Virus record (IMG/VR): IMGVR_UViG_3300017963_000229
Span: 24,601 to 88,600 of that record
Length of the DNA stretch: 64,000 bases
Source of the DNA: a virus
Strand: one strand, 5' to 3'
The notes below the pieces were generated by a model, which was given only the letters and a program-made list of their open reading frames with translations, searched no databases and had not been told where the DNA came from. Shown piece by piece: positions 44,361 through 55,964 of the stretch (position 1 is the first letter of the stretch; each line of letters begins with the position of its first letter). Position numbers and translations under genes: made by a program.

Positions 44361-44830
44361 GAATCTTTCCTATCGGTTAAGTTAAAACACGGCACATATT
44401 ATTACAATAATCCCATGTTTTCTCAACAAAATCAAGTATTTCATTCAGAAACTAACTTCCAGGTCCTCAGCCATCCTGAAATCCACTATGGCAGAACTGA
44501 GAAGATGGCCCGTCAATACCTCTCAGCCTGCCCAGAATCGACGCAACCCCCTTTTCTGGTACAAAACTATGTTTTCACCCTCTCAAAGCCTAAAAAACCC
44601 AATTAAACACTTCTGATTACTGCTATATATTTTTTGTAATCTAACATACAATTTTGCGAGAGTGTTTTTTCCGGATCTCTATCCCCAGGCTATCATATCC
44701 TATATATTACCTACATGTAGGTTCTTCTCTTCCTTCCCTTGTCTAGAGTTGCGATTCCCCTCAAATTCAAATCAACGGTCAAGAATAGGGTTTTCGCGAA
44801 CGAAGTGAGCGAAACACAATAAATTAAAAA
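44361..44830. other. Non-coding stretch of higher G+C beside the tape measure gene
   Basis: The 44461-44580 part is about half G+C, compared with about a third elsewhere and almost pure A/T in the next kilobase. The only sizeable frame (44415-44606, plus strand) has no ribosome site or recognised family. The stretch ends with a hairpin-like ttttcgcgaacgaagtgagc followed by gaaaca. It could carry the promoter for the tape-measure part of the operon, or be a piece of foreign DNA; I see no clear -35/-10 pair reading left. Confidence 0.4.
44709..44722. repeat. 14-bp perfect palindrome ACCTACATGTAGGT
   Basis: A perfect self-complementary 14-mer stands alone in non-coding DNA about 350 bases upstream of the tape measure start. 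It has the size and symmetry of a dimeric repressor operator. No second copy was seen in the window. Confidence 0.6.
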
Positions 44831-44845
44831 TACTATAATAAATTA

Positions 44846-44890
44846 AAAAAAAAAAAAAATAATATTAATATATATTAATATATAAAAATA
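44846..44890. other. A14 tract and nearly pure A/T segment
   Basis: A run of 14 A is followed by alternating ata/tta words (taatattaatatatattaat). Such DNA melts easily and bends, and together with the following repeats fits an origin or a promoter-rich switch region. It is also prone to assembly errors. Confidence 0.6.
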
Positions 44891-44983
44891 ATTATAAGAG
44901 CAAGTTTTGTGCCAATTTTATAACTAATTAAAATTATTTATATACTTACACATACTTACATGGGAATAAATTAGTAAATACAA

Positions 44984-45099
44984 TTGACAAAAAGTCGAAA
45001 AAACTTATTGAATAATTATATACACTTAACAATGTTTTTTAAAACAACAAATGTTAAATATATAAAATCATTAAATAAGTTTTTTCGACTTTTGGTCAA
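44984..45099. repeat. Large imperfect palindrome with 26-bp arms
   Basis: Left arm 44984-45009 (TTGACAAAAAGTCGAAAAAA and on) and right arm 45074-45099 (ending TCGACTTTTGGTCAA) are complementary at 25 of 26 positions. Inner parts (TTAACA against TGTTAA) extend the pairing towards a short loop. The left arm with following sequence is repeated at 45171. The arms contain AGTCGAAAAAACTTATT, which reads as a protein-binding element. It may be a hairpin origin, an operator pair or paired promoters facing one another. Confidence 0.85.
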
Positions 45100-45170
45100 C
45101 TATCTTTACTGATTAAGTAAAATATATTCAACAATTTCACATATTTATAAAATTGTCACAATTATGTCAT

Positions 45171-45275
45171 TTGACAAAAAGTCGAAAAAACTTATTGAAT
45201 AATTATATACACTTAACAATGTTTTTTTAAAAAACAATGATTAAATATATGAAATCATTAAATACTGTTTTTAAT
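45171..45275. repeat. Direct repeat of the palindrome's left half
   Basis: The first 57 bases are identical to 44984-45040, and the following 40 bases are similar, but the right arm is degenerate (it ends tactgtttttaa where the first copy has the TCGACTTTT arm). Only one copy therefore keeps the long palindrome. Confidence 0.85.
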
Positions 45276-45324
45276 AAAAATAGTTTACTATCCAGAAATA
45301 TAGAATATAATTTATCTTTTATAG

Positions 45325-45389
45325 GTGGACTAAGTGGTGGACCAAACTTTATTTAAACTATTTTATGTAAGATATGCTACAAAATATTT
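45325..45389. repeat. 65-bp direct repeat, copy 1
   Basis: Starts gtggactaagtggtggacca and contains ctattttatgtaagatatgc. The same segment occurs at 45481-45545 with a handful of substitutions. Each copy begins with two gtggac words, so it also has internal iteration. These look like iterons; nearby, tatgatattatt-like words occur three times between 45459 and 45680. Confidence 0.85.
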
Positions 45390-45480
45390 ATATAAAATAG
45401 CTATTTGCATTCTTATTATGGATAAATCACCTAATCGGTGATAAAAATGAAAAACTTTATGATATTATTTATTTTTTATA

Positions 45481-45545
45481 GTGGACTAAGTAAGTGGACT
45501 AAACTTTATTTGAACTATTTTATGTAAGATACGCTACAAATATTT
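45481..45545. repeat. 65-bp direct repeat, copy 2
   Basis: Second copy of the unit at 45325-45389 (gtggactaagtaagtggact and ctattttatgtaagatacgc). The 156-bp spacing between copies and the adjacent hairpin copies make 44984-45545 the most repeat-dense part of the window. Confidence 0.85.
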
Positions 45546-45840
45546 GAACCAAATATCTACCTATGCCCTTAATTGTCTAAAATCACTGTTTGGTTATTTG
45601 TTTTATTGATCCATATGTTGTAAAGGTATGATATTATTTGTTTTCCCACTCAACCAATTATAAAAATATGATATTGTTCACTTTTTTACTATATGATTTT
45701 TACTCTTTTTGCATAATTTACAATTATTAATATCTTTAGAATATTAACAACCATCTTTCAGTTGATACTTGCCATATAAAAGATATTAAAAAATATTATA
45801 CAAAAACACTAATACAGTTATATTTCTATATAAAATACTT
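45546..45840. other. A+T-rich non-coding stretch, nothing recognised
   Basis: Apart from the tatgatattatt-like words and an aatatctttagaatatt near-palindrome, no gene, terminator or promoter could be supported here. Confidence 0.5.
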
Positions 45841-45846
45841 TAAATA

Positions 45847-45898
45847 TATCTTAAAGATAGAACTATTATTTGACATGTAAGAAAAGGTGTATCATAGT
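45847..45898 (+). promoter_or_regulatory. Promoter and palindromic operator of plus-strand block 1
   Basis: TTGACA (45870-45875) is a perfect -35 box; 17 bases later CATAGT (45893-45898) fits the -10 box at four of six positions. Upstream, TATCTTAAAGATA (45847-45859) is a 13-bp palindrome. A nearly identical arrangement precedes block 2 at 48180-48232, including the gap between palindrome and -35. Transcription would begin near 45905, directly before the structured leader. The palindrome is a good candidate site for one of the ribbon-helix-helix proteins encoded nearby. Confidence 0.7.
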
Positions 45899-45924
45899 TT
45901 AATCAGCAGATTGGTTAACAAAAA

Positions 45925-46046
45925 AAGCACTGTTAGAGCTGGGTGCAGTGCTTACCTTGGTACTTTTTTTACACTCTCCACCAAGGAATTTTTTCTCCGG
46001 TGGTCCTTAAACGGTTTGGGACCTAGCTAACCCAGCTACAAACCGT
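45925..46046 (+). ncRNA. Structured leader RNA with complementary hairpin loops
   Basis: Three stems are visible. H1 is AAGCACTG (45925-45932) with CAGTGCTT (45946-45953). H2 is CCTTGGT (45955-45961) with ACCAAGG (45980-45986). H3 is ACGGTTTG (46011-46018) with CAAACCGT (46039-46046). The H1 loop contains AGCTGGGT (45937-45944) and the H3 loop contains ACCCAGCT (46030-46037), perfect 8-base complements, so a kissing-loop or pseudoknot fold is likely. CCACC (45978-45982) can alternatively pair with GGTGG (45999-46003), and GGTCC (46002-46006) with GGACC (46019-46023), giving possible alternative states. It lies between a good promoter and the AAAGGAG site of the 46079 gene. It matches no riboswitch or ribozyme class I recognise. 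Confidence 0.65.
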
Positions 46047-46078
46047 ATTTTTCCCATAACAAATAAAGGAGTTTTACT

Positions 46079-46342
46079 ATGAAAGAAACATTTATTTGTA
46101 ATCGTCAATATTTTATTTGCACTAATGAATACGATTTTGTTGGTAATCTTATAGCCGTTCAGAACCATTCATTGATAATTTCACAAGCTGTATTAATTCT
46201 CGACTCTGGAAATATTACTAAAACCTTACTTAATGGAGAATTTATAGAAATTAATCCCTTTGCTCCATTGCAAAAAATAATTATTAATCGACGACATATA
46301 ATTTTTATTGCTGAATATACTGGTCCTTTTCCACTGATTTAA
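46079..46342 (+). CDS. Hypothetical protein behind a structured leader
   Basis: 87 residues, starting MKETFICNRQYFICTNEYDF with an AAAGGAG ribosome site nine bases ahead. It is a beta-rich small protein (IAVQNHSLIISQAVLILDSG, then QKIIINRRHIIFIAEYTGPF) with no recognised domain. It is the first gene of the block, and the leader RNA ends about 30 bases before it, so its expression is the most likely target of any leader regulation. What it does is unknown. Confidence 0.6.
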   Translation: MKETFICNRQYFICTNEYDFVGNLIAVQNHSLIISQAVLILDSGNITKTLLNGEFIEINPFAPLQKIIINRRHIIFIAEYTGPFPLI

Positions 46343-46350
46343 ACAAAGAC

Positions 46351-46521
46351 ATGAATTCAAAGACCAATATGGAAATATAATTAAAGTCCAAGAATCTTCA
46401 GCAACTGATGAATATTGTTGTTGGATTTTTACTAAAAAAAAGAGAAGAAAGTATTCATTTAACTATTAAGCAAGCAGAAAAACTTAGAAATGCTTTAGAT
46501 GAATTTATCAAATCAAATTAA
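46351..46521 (+). pseudogene. Phage gene broken by two frame shifts
   Basis: Two overlapping frames together read like one small phage protein. From 46353 comes EFKDQYGNIIKVQESSATDE and YCCWIFT, then across the A8 run (46434-46441) the frame must shift by one base to continue EESIHLTIKQAEKLRNALDE and FIKSN to a stop at 46521. The ATG at 46351 is also one base out of phase with the first part. The combined sequence has the layout of a known kind of small phage protein whose end is LTxxQAxxLxxALxxF. It may be decayed, or the assembly may have two indel errors; a third option is programmed shifting at the A-run. Confidence 0.55.
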
Positions 46522-46549
46522 TACTATTAAATAAAAGGAGTAAATTAAA

Positions 46550-46774
46550 ATGACTAAACGTCGTTTTACTATAGATTTAACACCTAACGAACATGCCCAA
46601 TTGGAAAGAATAAAAAAAGACATAAATGCTGAATCAAAAACAGAAGTATTTAGAAAGGCAGTAAATTTATTAAATTTTATTGTAGATTATCAAAAAGAAA
46701 ATTATACTCTTGTCATGCGAAACGATAATTCAAAAAAAGAAAAAGAAATTATCTTTTTTTTGACAAAATATTAA
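46550..46774 (+). CDS. Ribbon-helix-helix (CopG/MetJ-like) regulator
   Basis: 74 residues. The N-terminus MTKRRFTIDLTPNEHAQLER is the ribbon strand with hydrophilic and hydrophobic alternation, followed by IKKDINAESKTEVFRKAVNL LNFIVDYQK, the two helices with the conserved S/T-K-T-E-V-x-R-x-A-x-x-L pattern. It has an AAAAGGAG site. Family members bind palindromic operators as dimers and often repress their own promoter, and the 13-bp palindrome at 45847 is a candidate operator. A C-terminal extension (MRNDNSKKEKEIIFFLTKY) is not part of the core fold. Confidence 0.75.
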   Translation: MTKRRFTIDLTPNEHAQLERIKKDINAESKTEVFRKAVNLLNFIVDYQKENYTLVMRNDNSKKEKEIIFFLTKY

Positions 46775-46865
46775 AAAACTGTCAGAATATACACCCTCTC
46801 TTACACAGTCTTACTGGCTGAAGTGTCCATCTTTTTTTTGGAATATTTCTAAATATATTCATTTT

Positions 46866-47788
46866 TTATTTCCTTTTTAGTTGCTCTTGTCGTTCTCTCT
46901 CTAGTTTGTCTTTTTTTTCAATAAATCGTACCCGTCTCGAGCTTGGCATTTTCATTACTTCAGAATAAGGCATTTTCATCATTTCCATTAAATAAAATAC
47001 CTGATCCTCTAAAACTCCTGGGTCTCCGAAGGGAAGAAAAAATCAATACCCTGTGGCTCTATACTAACAGTAAATCTATGATCACAAGCGTTACAAACAA
47101 CATCTATATCAGTCTCAATTTTGCCCTCTTTTATCTGATACGAATTTCTTATTTTATTCCGGTCCTTTAATGGTAATTTTTTTAAATCTGCTTGAGTAGG
47201 TGGTTTTCCATCTATTTCAATCACTCTCGTCATTAAAGCAGTTGTCATAAGACTTTGATCACCAGCATTAAGCAATTGCCGTGCCTTTTTTTGATCTTTA
47301 GCTTGCATTACCTTCATTTTAACCGTACTACCCGATCCGGGTAGATCAACATCCCAAATGATGTTTTCAGGCTCAATAGGCTTGATTATCGGTACATTGT
47401 CCAAATCATATGTTTGAAAAAAACTTTTTTTACATTCATTCTCAGGACAAGTTACTTTGAAAGAATACTGATTGCCAATACTAACCTTTCGCGCACCCAA
47501 AATGCTATAACTCAAATCCACTATCATCATATCTTTAACTAATTTAAGTATTTGACTTTTGTCCGTTACCGAAATCTGATCTCCATCGTCAATGCTAGTA
47601 ATACAATTAGCAATTAAAAAAATCATTCGATCTTCATAGCTAATTTTCCTATTCATTAAAAGATCCTCTTCTTCCCCCGTCATTTCTCTCATATATACAT
47701 TTTTTAGAGGAAAAGTAGAGCCGTTTTGCTCATACAAAACGCCTCCCGGCAATTCAAAATATCCTTTAGAACTTTTTGGATCATCCAT
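46866..47788 (-). CDS. Tail assembly chaperone, -1 frameshift product
   Basis: If the ribosome shifts back one base at T-TTT-TTC (47042-47036), it continues LPFGDPGVLEDQVFYLMEMM then KMPYSEVMKMPSSRRVRFIE KK to a stop at 46866. This adds 56 residues to the first 251, giving about 307. The added part has the tail-chaperone signature: a helix, then Y-S-x-V-x-x-M-P-x-x-x-R-x-x-F-I-E-K. This is the arrangement of many tail chaperone pairs, in which a shorter product and a longer fusion both bind the tape measure during assembly. The gene lies just upstream of the tape measure gene, with only a plus-strand block in between. The shift itself is inferred from sequence. Confidence 0.75.
47009..47788 (-). 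CDS. Tail assembly chaperone, unshifted product (gp26-like)
   Basis: 259 residues. The N-terminal half contains YFELPGGVLYEQNGSTFPLK, VYMREMTGEEEDLLMNRKIS and YEDRMIFLIANCITSIDDGD, features of T4 gp26-like baseplate-hub/tail-assembly proteins. Two Cys pairs (TCPENECKKSFF and VVCNACDHRF) probably bind zinc. It starts with an AGGTGA site. It ends QGIDFFFPSETQEF, and the slippery heptamer lies in the FFF codons, shortly before its stop at 47009. It probably acts in the cytoplasm as an assembly chaperone for the tape measure or hub. Confidence 0.75.
   Translation of the reverse strand: MDDPKSSKGYFELPGGVLYEQNGSTFPLKNVYMREMTGEEEDLLMNRKISYEDRMIFLIANCITSIDDGDQISVTDKSQILKLVKDMMIVDLSYSILGARKVSIGNQYSFKVTCPENECKKSFFQTYDLDNVPIIKPIEPENIIWDVDLPGSGSTVKMKVMQAKDQKKARQLLNAGDQSLMTTALMTRVIEIDGKPPTQADLKKLPLKDRNKIRNSYQIKEGKIETDIDVVCNACDHRFTVSIEPQGIDFFFPSETQEF
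47036..47042 (-). promoter_or_regulatory. Programmed -1 frameshift site T-TTT-TTC
   Basis: On the minus strand the heptamer TTTTTTC fits X-XXY-YYZ with the zero frame reading TTT TTC, a canonical slippery sequence for -1 shifting. It lies nine codons before the zero-frame stop, and the -1 frame is then open for 56 codons of clear tail-chaperone sequence. Downstream RNA structure was not firmly identified. Confidence 0.8.
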
Positions 47789-48270: not shown

Positions 48271-50343
48271 ATGAGTTTTAAAAATTTTGCAAATAAAGTA
48301 AGAAAACAATTTTATTCAATGGCGGAAGAAGGTCCATTATTCATAGTAGATATTAATAAAGATGAACTTTTTCAGTCTTATCAAGAAGCATTTCCGCCAG
48401 GCACTAATAAAATCTTTCGCGAAAGACAAAAATATGATTGTGATAATTGCAATAAATTCATTTTTAGAATAGGACGTGTTGTTAAAATCGTAAACAATGA
48501 ATTGATAACTGTTTGGAATATCGATCATTTAGAGGGACCTCTAGACATAAAGTATCAAATTGTTGCTAAAAAGATGGATACTCTGATCAAGAAATGTAAA
48601 ATTGATCAAATTTTTCTAATAGATCCTGAAGATGCTTACATAAGTGTAGAATCTAATATTGAAGATCTGACTGTGCTTAGATCGGGCCATGATCATTCTA
48701 AAGATCCACCAAATATTGATCATATTACATGGCATCATTTTAATTGTATAGTTCCTGACAGATTTTTATCCTCAAATAAAGGAACCTTAATTGGAGATGC
48801 CTCATCTGCGCAAGGAGTATTTGAACGCGGACTTGAAGAAATTAACATAGTTGCTATTGAATTGGTTTTAGATCTTATTGATAGTAATTCCATTTATCGT
48901 GGAGAAGAATTTCGATCAATGATTGAAGAGTTTCGCTCACATAAAGAAATATATTCAAATCTCAAAAATGAAAAAAAAGAATATTATACTTGGCTTAACT
49001 ATAAAAGTTGGGCTGCTAAAATTCGAGGAACCGCAATTGGTACATTGCTTTTAGATTTATCAAATGGTATAGAGCTAAATAACGCCGTTAACTCCTACGA
49101 AAAGAAGGTTGCTCCTGAAAATTACAAAAGAACCTCGGCTCCTATTACGAAACATATGATAGAGAAAGCTATCTTAAAAATTGATGAACTAGGCTTACGA
49201 GATTCGTTAGAACGTCGTTATGCTCAACTAGAGGATGTTAGTATAAATAATGTTATTTTTGCTGATAGATCTGCGTCTGAATTAATGCAAGATAATTTAG
49301 TGAAAATATTAAGCAATGAAGTTAAAGAAAATCCTAAACAGTTTGACGGTATAGAAGAAGTTTCTATTGAGGAATTTATTAGTAAAATAGTACCAAAATG
49401 TAACAGTATTAAAATACAATTTACCAACAATCATGAAAACAATCTAGTATCGCTAATTGCTCCTGTACACATTGATGCCCCCTTACTCTTTAAATGGAAT
49501 AATAACTTCAGCTGGACTTATAATGGAAATATTACTGACTCTTTAATGAAGAGAAGAGTTAAATCAGCAGGTGGAAATATTGACGCTTATCTAAGATTTT
49601 CTATTCAGTGGAATGAGGATGGCGATAATCATAATGATTTTGACGCCCATGTGTTCGAACCGAATAGTAATCATATTTATTATCCTAACAAAGGTTTAAA
49701 GCATCCGTCATCTGGACATTTAGATGTTGATATTGTTGAACCTATCAAAAATGTTGCAGTAGAAAATATAACATATACAAATCCTGCTAAAATGCCAGAA
49801 GGTAAATATAGATTTTTTGTACATAACTATACACATCGGGGTGGAAGATCTGGCTTTCGAGCAGAAATAGAATTCGATGGAATAATTTATAAATTTTCTT
49901 TTGATAAAAATCTAGCAGACGGCCATGAAGTAACAGTCGCAAATATTTTATATTCACGAGAAAATGGATTAAAAATTATAGAATCATTGCCTCATGATAA
50001 AACCTCCAAAGAAATTTGGGGCATAAAAACAGAAAAATTTCACAAGGTCAATGCTATCATGTATTCACCTAATCATTGGAATAATATAGGTGTCGGTAAT
50101 CGACACTACTTTTTCATGATAGATGGTTGTAAAAATGAAGATAAGGCTCGTGGATTCTATAATGAATTTATCAAAAATGAACTAAATATACATAGGAAAG
50201 TATTCGAAGTACTAGGCGAAAAGATGAAATGCGAAAAAAATACAAACCAAATAAGTGGATTAGGCTTTTCATCTACCAAACGTAATTCAGTTATTGTTAA
50301 AATATCTGAAGATATAAATAGAACTTTAAAGATTATATTTTAA
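48271..50343 (+). CDS. Conserved large phage protein of unknown function
   Basis: 690 residues. The N-terminal 400 residues match, in my recollection, a large hypothetical protein found in many phages: MSFKNFANKVRKQFYSMAEE GPLFIVDINKDELFQSY, YDCDNCNKFIFRIGRVV with a C-x-x-C motif, HITWHHFNCIVPDRFL, GVFERGLEEINIVAIELVLD and AAKIRGTAIGTLLLDLSNG. The C-terminal part includes a sandwich like DUF2135 (LRFSIQWNEDGDNHNDFDAH, then GHLDVDIVEP and KYRFFVHNYTHRGGRSGF). Its exact biochemical role is unknown. It leads the block containing the nucleotidyltransferase, and such a trio appears in other phages, so it may act with RNA-modifying partners. The start has only a weak ribosome site. Confidence 0.6.
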   Translation: MSFKNFANKVRKQFYSMAEEGPLFIVDINKDELFQSYQEAFPPGTNKIFRERQKYDCDNCNKFIFRIGRVVKIVNNELITVWNIDHLEGPLDIKYQIVAKKMDTLIKKCKIDQIFLIDPEDAYISVESNIEDLTVLRSGHDHSKDPPNIDHITWHHFNCIVPDRFLSSNKGTLIGDASSAQGVFERGLEEINIVAIELVLDLIDSNSIYRGEEFRSMIEEFRSHKEIYSNLKNEKKEYYTWLNYKSWAAKIRGTAIGTLLLDLSNGIELNNAVNSYEKKVAPENYKRTSAPITKHMIEKAILKIDELGLRDSLERRYAQLEDVSINNVIFADRSASELMQDNLVKILSNEVKENPKQFDGIEEVSIEEFISKIVPKCNSIKIQFTNNHENNLVSLIAPVHIDAPLLFKWNNNFSWTYNGNITDSLMKRRVKSAGGNIDAYLRFSIQWNEDGDNHNDFDAHVFEPNSNHIYYPNKGLKHPSSGHLDVDIVEPIKNVAVENITYTNPAKMPEGKYRFFVHNYTHRGGRSGFRAEIEFDGIIYKFSFDKNLADGHEVTVANILYSRENGLKIIESLPHDKTSKEIWGIKTEKFHKVNAIMYSPNHWNNIGVGNRHYFFMIDGCKNEDKARGFYNEFIKNELNIHRKVFEVLGEKMKCEKNTNQISGLGFSSTKRNSVIVKISEDINRTLKIIF

Positions 50344-50394
50344 AAAATAAAATTTAATTATACTGTAATATTAAAAAATCAAGGAAGAAAAGCA

Positions 50395-51663
50395 ATGATA
50401 GAAGGATATAAGTTTTTTTTAAAAGATTACAAAGCAAAGTACGGTGATTTTCAATTCAAGGTAGGAGAACAATATAAACATGATGGTCCAGTAATACTTT
50501 GTCAATCAGGTTTTCATTTTTCTAAAAAATTAAGTGATGCATTTGAATATTATAAAGAGGAGGCACATCATTGTTGCAAGGTGAAGGGAGATGGAAAAAT
50601 AAAAGAGGGGAAAGACAAGATTGTCTGCTCAGAAATACACATCAAAGAAGAATTAAATATTGCTGAAGTATTAGAAAAATTAAGTGAAGATAGTAATAAT
50701 GATGTTAGGAGAGCAGTAGCAGCAAATCCTAACTGTTCAATCAATACATTAAAAAAATTAAGTGAAGATAATAATATTAAAGAGATAGTAGTAAGAAATC
50801 CTAACTGTCCAGTTGAAATATTAGACAAATTATGCAAGGATGATAATTGGTATACTAAATGGGCAATAGTAAATAATTCTAACTGTCCAATAAATGTGTT
50901 AAAAAAATTAAGCGAAGATAGTAATTATAATATTAAAGAAGCGGTAGCAAAGAATCCTAACTGTTCAGTGGATATATTAAAAGAACTAAGTAAAGATAAT
51001 AATTGGAATGTTAAAAAAGCAGTAGCAAAAAATTCCAATTGTCCAACAGAAACCCTGGAAAAGCTAAGCAAAGACGATAGTTGGAATGTTAGATGGGCAG
51101 TAGCAAAAAATCCTAATTGCTTAGTAAATATATTGGACAAATTAAGTAATGATAATGATTGGGATGTTAGGAGGGAAGTAGTATTAAATTCTAATTGTTC
51201 AGTTGAAATATTAAAAAAATTAAGTATGGATGATTATTGGAGTGTCAGAAGAGCAGTAGTAAGCAATCCCAATTGTCCAACAGAAACCCTGGAAAAGTTA
51301 AGCAAGGATGATGATAGTGATGTTAGATGTGAAGTAATAAATAATCTCAACTGTCCAACAGAAACCCTAGAAAAATTAAGTAAGTATGACAATTGGGGTA
51401 TTAGAAAAGCAGTAGCAGAAAGTCCTAACTGTCCAATAGAGACACTAAAAGAATTAAGTAAAGAAAATCATAATGATATTAAATGGGCAGTAGCAAAAAA
51501 TCCTAACTGTCCAATAGAGACACTAAAAGAATTAAGTAAAAACAATTGCTGGTATATTAAACTAGCGGTAGCAGAAAATCCCAATTGTCCAACAGAAACC
51601 CTAGAAAAATTAAGTGAGGATGACGATGATATTAGAAAAGCAATAATAAACAATATTACTTAG
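50395..51663 (+). CDS. DUF7666-like protein with 13 LRV-type repeats
   Basis: 422 residues. Residues about 1-85 (MIEGYKFFLKDYKAKYGDFQ, then FKVGEQYKHDGPVILCQSGF HFSKKLSDAFEYY) are a DUF7666-like domain. From about residue 88 follow 13 repeats of nearly 26 residues with the pattern x-x-x-L-x-x-L-S-x-D-x-x-W-x-V-R-x-A-V-A-x-N-P-N-C-P. This is the layout of leucine-rich repeat variant (LRV) proteins, which form a right-handed alpha/3-10 superhelix. An NxNC cysteine recurs in 12 of the 13 repeats, giving a ladder of cysteines. It has a full-length relative starting at 62975 and a truncated copy on the minus strand at 31881. A protein-binding scaffold is the most likely role; the partner is unknown. 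Confidence 0.7.
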   Translation: MIEGYKFFLKDYKAKYGDFQFKVGEQYKHDGPVILCQSGFHFSKKLSDAFEYYKEEAHHCCKVKGDGKIKEGKDKIVCSEIHIKEELNIAEVLEKLSEDSNNDVRRAVAANPNCSINTLKKLSEDNNIKEIVVRNPNCPVEILDKLCKDDNWYTKWAIVNNSNCPINVLKKLSEDSNYNIKEAVAKNPNCSVDILKELSKDNNWNVKKAVAKNSNCPTETLEKLSKDDSWNVRWAVAKNPNCLVNILDKLSNDNDWDVRREVVLNSNCSVEILKKLSMDDYWSVRRAVVSNPNCPTETLEKLSKDDDSDVRCEVINNLNCPTETLEKLSKYDNWGIRKAVAESPNCPIETLKELSKENHNDIKWAVAKNPNCPIETLKELSKNNCWYIKLAVAENPNCPTETLEKLSEDDDDIRKAIINNIT

Positions 51664-51723
51664 TAAGGTATATTAAAAAACCAAACATCAACAAGTAAAA
51701 TTAGCAAAAAAGGAGTTATTAAA

Positions 51724-52119
51724 ATGAATTTATTTGAAAAAGCGGCGCGCATTAAATTAAGATTTAATACGCCTGTTGGAATGGCAAGCGTTGAAGACTT
51801 GTGGGATTTGCCATTAACCAGTAACACTAGACCTAATCTAGATATGATTGCTATAACAATAAATGCACAATTAAAAGAATGCGCAACCGAATCTTTTGTG
51901 CATAAAGTTAATCCTGAAACAGCAATATTACAACTCAAGTTGGATATAGTTAAACATGTTATAGATGTTAAACTAAAAGAAATTAAAGAAAATGAGAATG
52001 AAATGGCGCGCAAATCTCGTCGAGAAGAACTATTGGCGTTAAAAGACGAAAAAAGACGTGAAAAAGATCGTGAAATGTCACTGGAAGAACTTGATCGAAA
52101 AATTGCCGAATTAACTTAA
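51724..52119 (+). CDS. Conserved small phage protein with coiled-coil C-terminus
   Basis: 131 residues (MNLFEKAARIKLRFNTPVGM ASVEDLWDLPLTSNTRPNLD). It begins as a helical domain with EDLWDLPL and continues into ILQLKLDIVKHVIDVKLKEI followed by a charged helix (REELLALKDEKRREKDREMS). It has a strong AAAAAGGAG site. I recall this protein as widespread in phages next to nucleotidyltransferase-type genes. The function is unknown; the layout fits a small partner protein. Confidence 0.6.
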   Translation: MNLFEKAARIKLRFNTPVGMASVEDLWDLPLTSNTRPNLDMIAITINAQLKECATESFVHKVNPETAILQLKLDIVKHVIDVKLKEIKENENEMARKSRREELLALKDEKRREKDREMSLEELDRKIAELT

Positions 52120-52136
52120 AAAATAGTATTTTTATA

Positions 52137-53030
52137 ATGTTTCTTTTAAAAAACCTTGTTAGAGATCGACTAATCAATCCACCCCCTTGGTTACCTCAAT
52201 CAACGCAATATCTTTGCCTAATGGGATCAGTTGCTTATGGTGTTGCCGCCGATGATAGCGATGCAGACATCTATGGATTTTGTATTCCTAAAAAAGATAT
52301 GATTTTTCCTCATTTGAGAGGAGAAATTTTAGGCTTTGGAAAGCAAATTAATCGTTTTGAACAATGGCAACAACATCATGTAAAAGATGAAAAAAAAGGT
52401 AAAGAATATGATTTTCAAATATATAGTATCGTAAAGTTCTTTCAACTATGCATGGAAAATAACCCCAACATGGTAGATGCTCTTTTTGTTCCTCAACGTT
52501 GCGTAATTTATTGTTCCCCTGTCGGCCAACTTGTTAGAGAAAATAGAAAAATATTTTTACACAGAGGTTGTTGGCATAAATTCAAAGGTTACGCTTATAG
52601 TCAACTTCATAAAATTAAAACAAAAAGACCTCAACAGGACTCAAAAAGATATAAAGACATTCAACAATATGGATTTGATTGTAAATTTGCTTATCATGTC
52701 GTTAGACTTATTAATGAGGTTGAACAAATCTTAACAGAAAAAAATTTAAATCTTGAACGTGACAGAGAGATTTTAAAAGCCATTAGAAGGGGAGAATGGA
52801 CAGAGGAAAAAATTACTCGATATTTTGAACAAAAAGAAGAACAACTTAAGAATGTGTATCATAAATCAGATTTGCCATATGGTCCACAAGAAGATAAAAT
52901 AAAAAAATTATTAATTGAATGTCTAGAATGTTACTTTGGAAATCTTGATGAAGTAATTCATATGGAAAAAATAGAAAGAACTGCTATTGAAGAAATATCT
53001 AAAATCTGTAATAAAATTTTGACACAGTAA
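52137..53030 (+). CDS. Nucleotidyltransferase, YcgL/RlaP-like (Pol beta superfamily)
   Basis: 297 residues. LCLMGSVAYGVAADDSDADI YGF (about residues 28-50) is the G-S-x-A-Y-G-...-S-D-x-D motif of Pol-beta-type nucleotidyltransferases of the YcgL/RlaP group, with two metal-binding Asp residues. IFPHLRGEILGFGKQ and FEQWQQHH follow as in phage members, then HRGCWHKFKGYAYSQLHKIK and a helical C-terminus. RlaP proteins have been proposed, by gene neighbourhood, to act with RNA ligases in RNA repair. An RNA ligase gene lies in block 3 (61551). The reaction (adding a nucleotide to an RNA end or modifying a target) is inferred, not shown. Confidence 0.75.
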   Translation: MFLLKNLVRDRLINPPPWLPQSTQYLCLMGSVAYGVAADDSDADIYGFCIPKKDMIFPHLRGEILGFGKQINRFEQWQQHHVKDEKKGKEYDFQIYSIVKFFQLCMENNPNMVDALFVPQRCVIYCSPVGQLVRENRKIFLHRGCWHKFKGYAYSQLHKIKTKRPQQDSKRYKDIQQYGFDCKFAYHVVRLINEVEQILTEKNLNLERDREILKAIRRGEWTEEKITRYFEQKEEQLKNVYHKSDLPYGPQEDKIKKLLIECLECYFGNLDEVIHMEKIERTAIEEISKICNKILTQ

Positions 53031-55454: not shown

Positions 55455-55964
55455 TTATGGAGCAAATTTGTAATCAGCTGCTGAAGTATTTTCTATATCA
55501 AACCATTCGCAAGCAATATCCATTTCTCGAATACTAATATCAGATGTAGATGCATCTAGATCGCCTCCTGGTTTTACTCGAATAGGAATAGCATTTTTAA
55601 TTTCATACTTTACAGTTCCAAAAGGTGTTTCTTCTGCAAAATCATCTCTGTGTAAATGATGAATTGTAAAATCGTATCTATATTCGTTACCACTTATAAA
55701 ATCAAGCATCCATTTACAAAAATCTGATTCACCCTTTACCACACCCTTCGAAAGGGTAACGTCTGAAACTGCCGGAATACCGCCTTGTTTGATTGTAAAT
55801 TTAGTTAATCCTTCCCTGTATTCTGCAACTTCAGCCGTCATTTCAGGAATAGTGACTGCGCTAAATCCTGCTGAAGTTATCGGAAAAGTATTACCATTAG
55901 TAGGAACACCAACAATATGATACTTCATAGACTGTAAATAGTCTTTTGCCATTTCTCGTGCCAT
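55455..55964 (-). CDS. Tail tube protein
   Basis: 169 residues: MKYHIVGVPTNGNTFPITSA, AGFSAVTIPEMTAEVAEYRE, FTIKQGGIPAVSDVTLSKGV, ESDFCKWMLDFI and ISIREMDIACEWFDI. These match the T4 gp19-like/P2 FII-like tube pattern (a beta-sandwich with K-G-V-x-x-x-x-D-F/W) and the gene lies after the sheath gene, as expected. It would polymerise inside the sheath. Confidence 0.85.
   Translation of the reverse strand: MAREMAKDYLQSMKYHIVGVPTNGNTFPITSAGFSAVTIPEMTAEVAEYREGLTKFTIKQGGIPAVSDVTLSKGVVKGESDFCKWMLDFISGNEYRYDFTIHHLHRDDFAEETPFGTVKYEIKNAIPIRVKPGGDLDASTSDISIREMDIACEWFDIENTSAADYKFAP

Follow-up and report, generated by a model that had tools for sequence, protein, structure and literature searches.

What function is served by the folded stretch that precedes the first plus-strand gene of a phage tail-gene region? 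The window, that is, the whole 64-kb stretch analysed (24601-88600 of an 88.6-kb IMG/VR virus record), encodes a tail sheath, a tail tube, a gp15-like protein, a baseplate hub and an RNA ligase, and its tail genes together with the ligase indicate a large contractile-tailed phage. The folded element lies in AT-rich DNA flanked by two minus-strand genes, those for the tail tape-measure protein and the hub, and has a few small plus-strand ORFs 3′ of it. The first of these encodes 87 aa without a family match (46079..46342, plus strand) and has the Shine-Dalgarno (SD) sequence AAAGGAG at 46065..46071 (plus strand). A consensus scan places a sigma70-like promoter candidate, TTGACA-17-CATAGT, at 45870..45898 on the same strand; this promoter, also named in an earlier note, is a 10/12 match, and such matches are common in the surrounding region.

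The hub/tape-measure junction itself (window 44361-47008) is an insertion hot spot. Its insert measures about 2.6 kb in the window and, with another set of ORFs, about 2.8 kb in a related phage designated G024 (L173 3279-6046), while in most other relatives the gap is 0.2-0.6 kb. Two 105-bp direct repeats, 90% alike, and long inverted repeats occupy the AT-rich gap 5′ of the element (window 44981-45272). On the 3′ side of the 87-aa ORF (window 46345-46523, plus strand), the gene for a small 'YGN..QESS' protein is split over two frames at an A-run, representing either a degraded gene or an assembly error; relatives of this protein are found in Geobacillus virus E3 (gp152) and in Gordonia/Streptomyces phages. 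A plus-strand cargo block, with the tube on one side and the hub on the other, occupies window 48271-53030. It encodes a 690-aa protein of phrog_1735 (499 phage records), a 422-aa leucine-rich-repeat-variant protein with DUF7666 and a nucleotidyltransferase, and is absent from the fetched G024 sequence.

Three plus-strand hairpins described in the earlier note, together with the 8-base complementarity between two of their loops and two further pairings, were all recovered. H1 (45925-45932/45946-45953) has 8 pairs and a 13-nt loop containing AGCTGGGT (45937-45944), which is perfectly complementary over 8 bases to ACCCAGCT (46030-46037) in the loop of H3. H2 (CCTTGGT/ACCAAGG, 45955-45961/45980-45986) has 7 pairs and an 18-nt loop, and is followed by AATTTTTT. 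H3 is built on a stem of 8 pairs, termed P1 (46011-46018/46039-46046), closing a 20-nt loop that consists of a 5-nt bulge, GGACC (46019-46023), and an inner 5-bp hairpin, P2 (TAGCT-AACCC-AGCTA, 46024-46028/46034-46038), with the loop AACCC. The earlier note overlooked the U-tract 3′ of H3 (46048..46052, plus strand), which has the form of an intrinsic-terminator tail; it is short in the window (T5, read as AUUUUU) and gives way to a much longer T-run in G024. In our best reading, this terminator-like H3 is the conserved functional core.

The two further pairings had both been proposed to compete with the hairpins. CCACC (45978-45982) is complementary to GGTGG (45999-46003) and does exclude H2; extended by an inner GGA/TCC pairing, it forms an alternative hairpin, H2′ (45978..46003, plus strand), which is favoured in the partition function with a mean pair probability of about 0.7. 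It is the only one of the two to show true exclusion. GGTCC (46002-46006) is complementary to the GGACC bulge (46019-46023) and is no rival of H3: on geometric grounds the helix, termed S1, can coexist with the H3 stem as a classical H-type pseudoknot without a gap at the helix junction, since it adjoins P1 and P2 with zero spare bases. Its 5′ strand is held in GTGGTC plus C (46000..46006, plus strand), which reads GTGGTC[C/T] in both phages. P2, within the H3 loop, rivals the loop-loop helix for the same bases.

Relatives were collected by alignment of the sheath C-terminal domain, which yielded 80 related contigs. The closest relative found is IMGVR_UViG_3300042731_011014 (177,890 bp; sheath domain 71% identical), the G024 mentioned above, and H3 has a match there at 55,620-55,654 on the minus strand. 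The G024 motif reads GTGGTCTT GGCGGCTG GGACC TAGCT AATCC AGCTA CAGCCGTT, followed by a long T-run, ACAAGGAG, AAAATA and ATG, and the window motif reads GTGGTCCTTAA ACGGTTTG GGACC TAGCT AACCC AGCTA CAAACCGT ATTTTT, then AAAGGAG and ATG. The order of elements is therefore identical in both: GGUCY, P1, GGACC, P2, U-tract, SD, ATG. In a gapless alignment of P1, five of the eight pairs vary, four of them by double changes, and all eight still pair. The stem differs at 9 of its 16 bases and the 20-nt loop at only one (19/20 identical; Fisher p = 0.0017), which argues that the loop sequence is constrained beyond a terminator role. P2 is invariant between the two phages; it is conserved, with no covariation by which its pairing could be judged. 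In S1, GGUCC becomes GGUCU in G024 and pairing with GGACC is kept through a G-U pair; conservation of the upstream GTGGTC is moderately significant (a run of 6 occurs in 582 of 20,000 shuffles). The G-U pairs of G024, two in P1 and one in S1, point to an RNA of the small-gene strand rather than its complement.

The settings of the two copies differ, with the motif standing among tail genes in the window and in a different gene block in G024, whose neighbours, read by eye from translations, we take to be a UvrD-like helicase, a uracil-DNA-glycosylase-like protein and a thymidylate-synthase-like protein. There the motif occupies the 78-nt gap between a 196-aa gene and an 81-aa gene, about 10 nt after the stop codon of the former, so that transcripts from upstream can enter the 81-aa gene and later genes only by passing a strong terminator. 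H1 and H2 are absent upstream of the G024 motif, since the end of the 196-aa gene leaves no room for them, and a search of about 750 nt on the upstream side and 340 nt on the downstream side revealed no partner for its loop. Hence, H1, H2 and the helix between the H1 and H3 loops, which is not conserved in this homologue, fall outside the conserved unit. The suggestion of a switching leader or compact tertiary RNA consequently stands insofar as a structured plus-strand leader precedes the first plus-strand gene and its H3 stem covaries, but the homologue lacks the other two hairpins. The 87-aa and 81-aa downstream ORFs show no detectable similarity to each other, neither belongs to a Pfam family, and their AlphaFold models, being of low confidence, were set aside. 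Elsewhere in G024, a promoter-like block is common to two upstream gene gaps (L158 about 2602-2556 and 2207-2161, minus strand; ACCCTTGAT(T/C)TTTT...TGTCAC(G/C)ATTTAATTGTAGGG), and a DnaB-like helicase (L169 2018-4561, minus strand) seems, from its translation read by eye, to bear an intein running from CNRLDNTYMIDPLTG... to ...LVAHNT.

Searches for further copies covered RNA families, genome collections and related records. Rfam yielded zero families above the gathering threshold in the window, in agreement with the earlier note, which recognised no class. Permissive searches gave chance-level matches only; the best of them (E 0.25), to part of a group II intron on the minus strand, was dismissed as chance. 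BLASTN found no match for the leader among phages or for the motif among plasmids, and the G024 motif retrieved from phages just a 20-nt stretch in the query's AT-rich end (E 0.7). DNA-pattern matches in viral contigs, for the H1 loop or for both loops, were chance or coding-like only. Single-protein searches of viral contigs with the downstream ORF and the baseplate hub found no relatives, and relatives of the VQESS-type ORF carry no comparable hairpin pair upstream. Motif patterns run against viral and bacterial/archaeal genome collections matched G024 alone. A 42-column covariance model identified two loci only, in the window phage (G000) and G024, among 50 related records; when 1.16 Mb of their fetched sequence was included, its other matches were all simple post-capsid terminators or coding sequence. 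A sequence-free descriptor (S1-P1-bulge-P2-U-tract) recovered both known loci plus one chance match in 2.86 Mb, counting both strands, and a looser version found G024 again and nothing else in 1.36 Mb of fetched sequence. A hairpin with ACCCAGCT at G024:40988 was rejected because it resembles coding sequence.

The loop complementarity is well beyond chance. When the whole 64 kb was scanned for hairpins with at least 7 pairs whose loops share at least 6 complementary bases, H1/H3 was the sole pair to pass, and no hairpin pair with at least 6 complementary loop bases appeared in 20 shuffled windows. Shuffling the element 20,000 times never gave 8 complementary loop bases; at least 6 arose once, and three such hairpins arose three times. 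The plain folding energy is unexceptional (z = -1.2). The alternative folds proposed in the earlier note are supported in that two mutually exclusive folds of near-equal energy exist: at most about 1.5 kcal/mol separates the terminator fold from the H1-loop/H3-loop fold (-37.8 versus -37.5 kcal/mol for 45904-46052, and -40.3 versus -40.7 kcal/mol for 45904-46078). With the H1 loop scrambled in silico, the mean probability of P1 is about 0.77 rather than 0.21. Nevertheless, suppression of P1 as strong as that of the native sequence occurs in 17% of shuffled upstream sequences (68/400), so the predicted bistability does not exceed chance. H1 may serve as an antiterminator in the window phage only.

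In both gene contexts, a predicted intrinsic terminator, with a GC-containing stem and a U-tract, lies in sense orientation between the candidate promoter or upstream gene and the ORF. This succession of hairpin, U-tract and SD argues for a terminator used as an attenuator, and the conserved H3 loop argues for recognition by something. The H3 unit is probably a brake on gene expression, and we give roughly even weight to the element being a cis-acting transcription attenuator with a structured intrinsic terminator. Its functional core, located with similarly balanced confidence, would be the 3′ part at about 46000-46052, comprising P1 with the U-tract, the conserved bulge and inner hairpin (GGACC-UAGCU-AAYCC-AGCUA) and the upstream GGUCY strand. 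From the computed homology, P1 covariation, conserved loop, terminator anatomy and alternative fold, we infer attenuation, the existence of a signal and a role for H1. In the proposed mechanism, the GGUCY strand would pair with the GGACC bulge as a pseudoknot, and most transcripts would end at the U-tract, just 5′ of the small gene's SD. A signal, which could be a protein of phage or host, a small molecule or a second RNA, would read the conserved bulge and loop and refold the RNA, allowing polymerase to enter the gene. In the window phage, the H1 loop strand could pair with the H3 loop and the 3′ strand of P2, displacing P1 and causing antitermination. Counting against the attenuator, the downstream ORFs lack detectable similarity and so point to no shared regulated function; conservation, namely P1 covariation and the loop, comes from two sequences only; the antiterminator fold, present in silico, is matched by 17% of the upstream shuffles and has no counterpart in G024, which is without H1 and H2; and the window U-tract is short. 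A separate promoter between terminator and gene, or within the 196-aa ORF, is also possible.

Related phages also carry simple hairpin-U-tract-SD units 3′ of the capsid gene, which indicates that this clade habitually places terminators against the ribosome site of the following gene. H3 stands out from these units by its conserved loop. In L216 (6301-6341), L201 (3488-3526), L186 and L227, the hairpin 3′ of the probable capsid gene has a CCGGGTCGG/ACCGGCTCGG core and T7-8, directly before the next SD and ATG. With its conserved stem, this post-capsid hairpin is possibly a graded terminator.

The main rival of the attenuator is a small phage RNA ending at H3, in keeping with the stand-alone small RNA that the earlier note gave as its alternative. 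The motif would then form the 3′ end of a window RNA of about 148 nt (promoter at 45870, terminator at 46052) and of a 3′-UTR-derived RNA in G024, with bulge and loop pairing with target RNAs or binding a protein. Terminator-like hairpins less than 150 nt 3′ of a promoter candidate, and a strongly conserved terminator loop ahead of unlike downstream genes, would suit such an RNA; H1 and H2, two thirds of its putative length, are however not conserved, and the motif is tight against the next gene's SD in both phages. We regard it as a possible but minority explanation. The element could also be a cluster of plain terminators belonging to an inserted cargo block, in which H3 and H2 would stop plus-strand transcripts and the minus-strand reading of H1 would end the tail operon. 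In line with this, H1 has a terminator-like form on the minus strand, where its reverse complement gives a stem-loop and then T7, and the loop CACCCAGCTCTAA is close to AACCCAGCTA of H3; the two have ACCCAGCT in common, so that the loop complementarity would be a by-product of opposed terminators with the same loop letters. The AATTTTTT that follows H2 and the block's position between minus-strand tail genes, at a junction that likewise carries an insertion in G024 and spans 0.2-0.6 kb in most other relatives, fit as well. Yet a plain terminator needs no 20-nt loop that stays 95% identical while the stem changes 9/16 bases, and we consider such a cluster rather improbable. Finally, complementarity this far beyond chance might reflect a compact tertiary RNA with the H1 and H3 loops kissing over 8 bp. 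This appears very improbable: the loop-loop helix is missing in G024, where the C to U change in the loop has no partner, and the conserved P2 would need opening.

Among known systems, the element resembles attenuating leaders and riboswitches with an intrinsic terminator in its predicted alternative folds and in having structure, terminator hairpin and U-tract directly before the SD and ORF. It differs from them in lacking an Rfam family, a known ligand or a common downstream gene, and in carrying its aptamer-like sequence inside the terminator hairpin. The T-box leader antiterminator bulge is UGGNACC, and both phages have UGGGACC on the 5′ side between two stacked helices, the first two bases being P1-paired. 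Unlike in a T-box, the bulge lies in the terminator, there is no Rfam T-box match and no aminoacylation gene lies downstream; a T-box Stem I with specifier loop is absent, the space after the stop codon in G024 being only those 10 or so nt. The phi29 packaging RNA is likewise about 120 nt long and has two hairpin loops complementary to each other, but the element lacks paired ends, loop conservation and an Rfam match, and the phage type is unrelated. Like the proposed attenuator, the glnA RNA of phage Melnitz is phage-borne and cis-regulatory; the element has no match to the Rfam models searched. The Melnitz RNA is a glutamine riboswitch, and riboswitches have been called rare in phages (PMC9004378).

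We tentatively raise, as unlikely though conceivable, a new, small class of regulatory RNA, limited so far to a single clade of large uncultured myophages. Its sensor (GGACC bulge, AAYCC hairpin and GGUCY pseudoknot strand), placed inside a terminator hairpin, would bind a metabolite, a tRNA 3′ end, as the likeness of UGGGACC to the T-box bulge suggests, or a phage protein. Regulatory RNA leaders are seldom described in phages, and at 55 nt the motif is a well-defined object for experiments. Should it prove only a terminator, the case illustrates how striking loop complementarity can mislead when homologues are lacking. If a covarying, loop-conserved terminator does act before unrelated small genes, then a shared RNA signal would time or limit expression in these phages.
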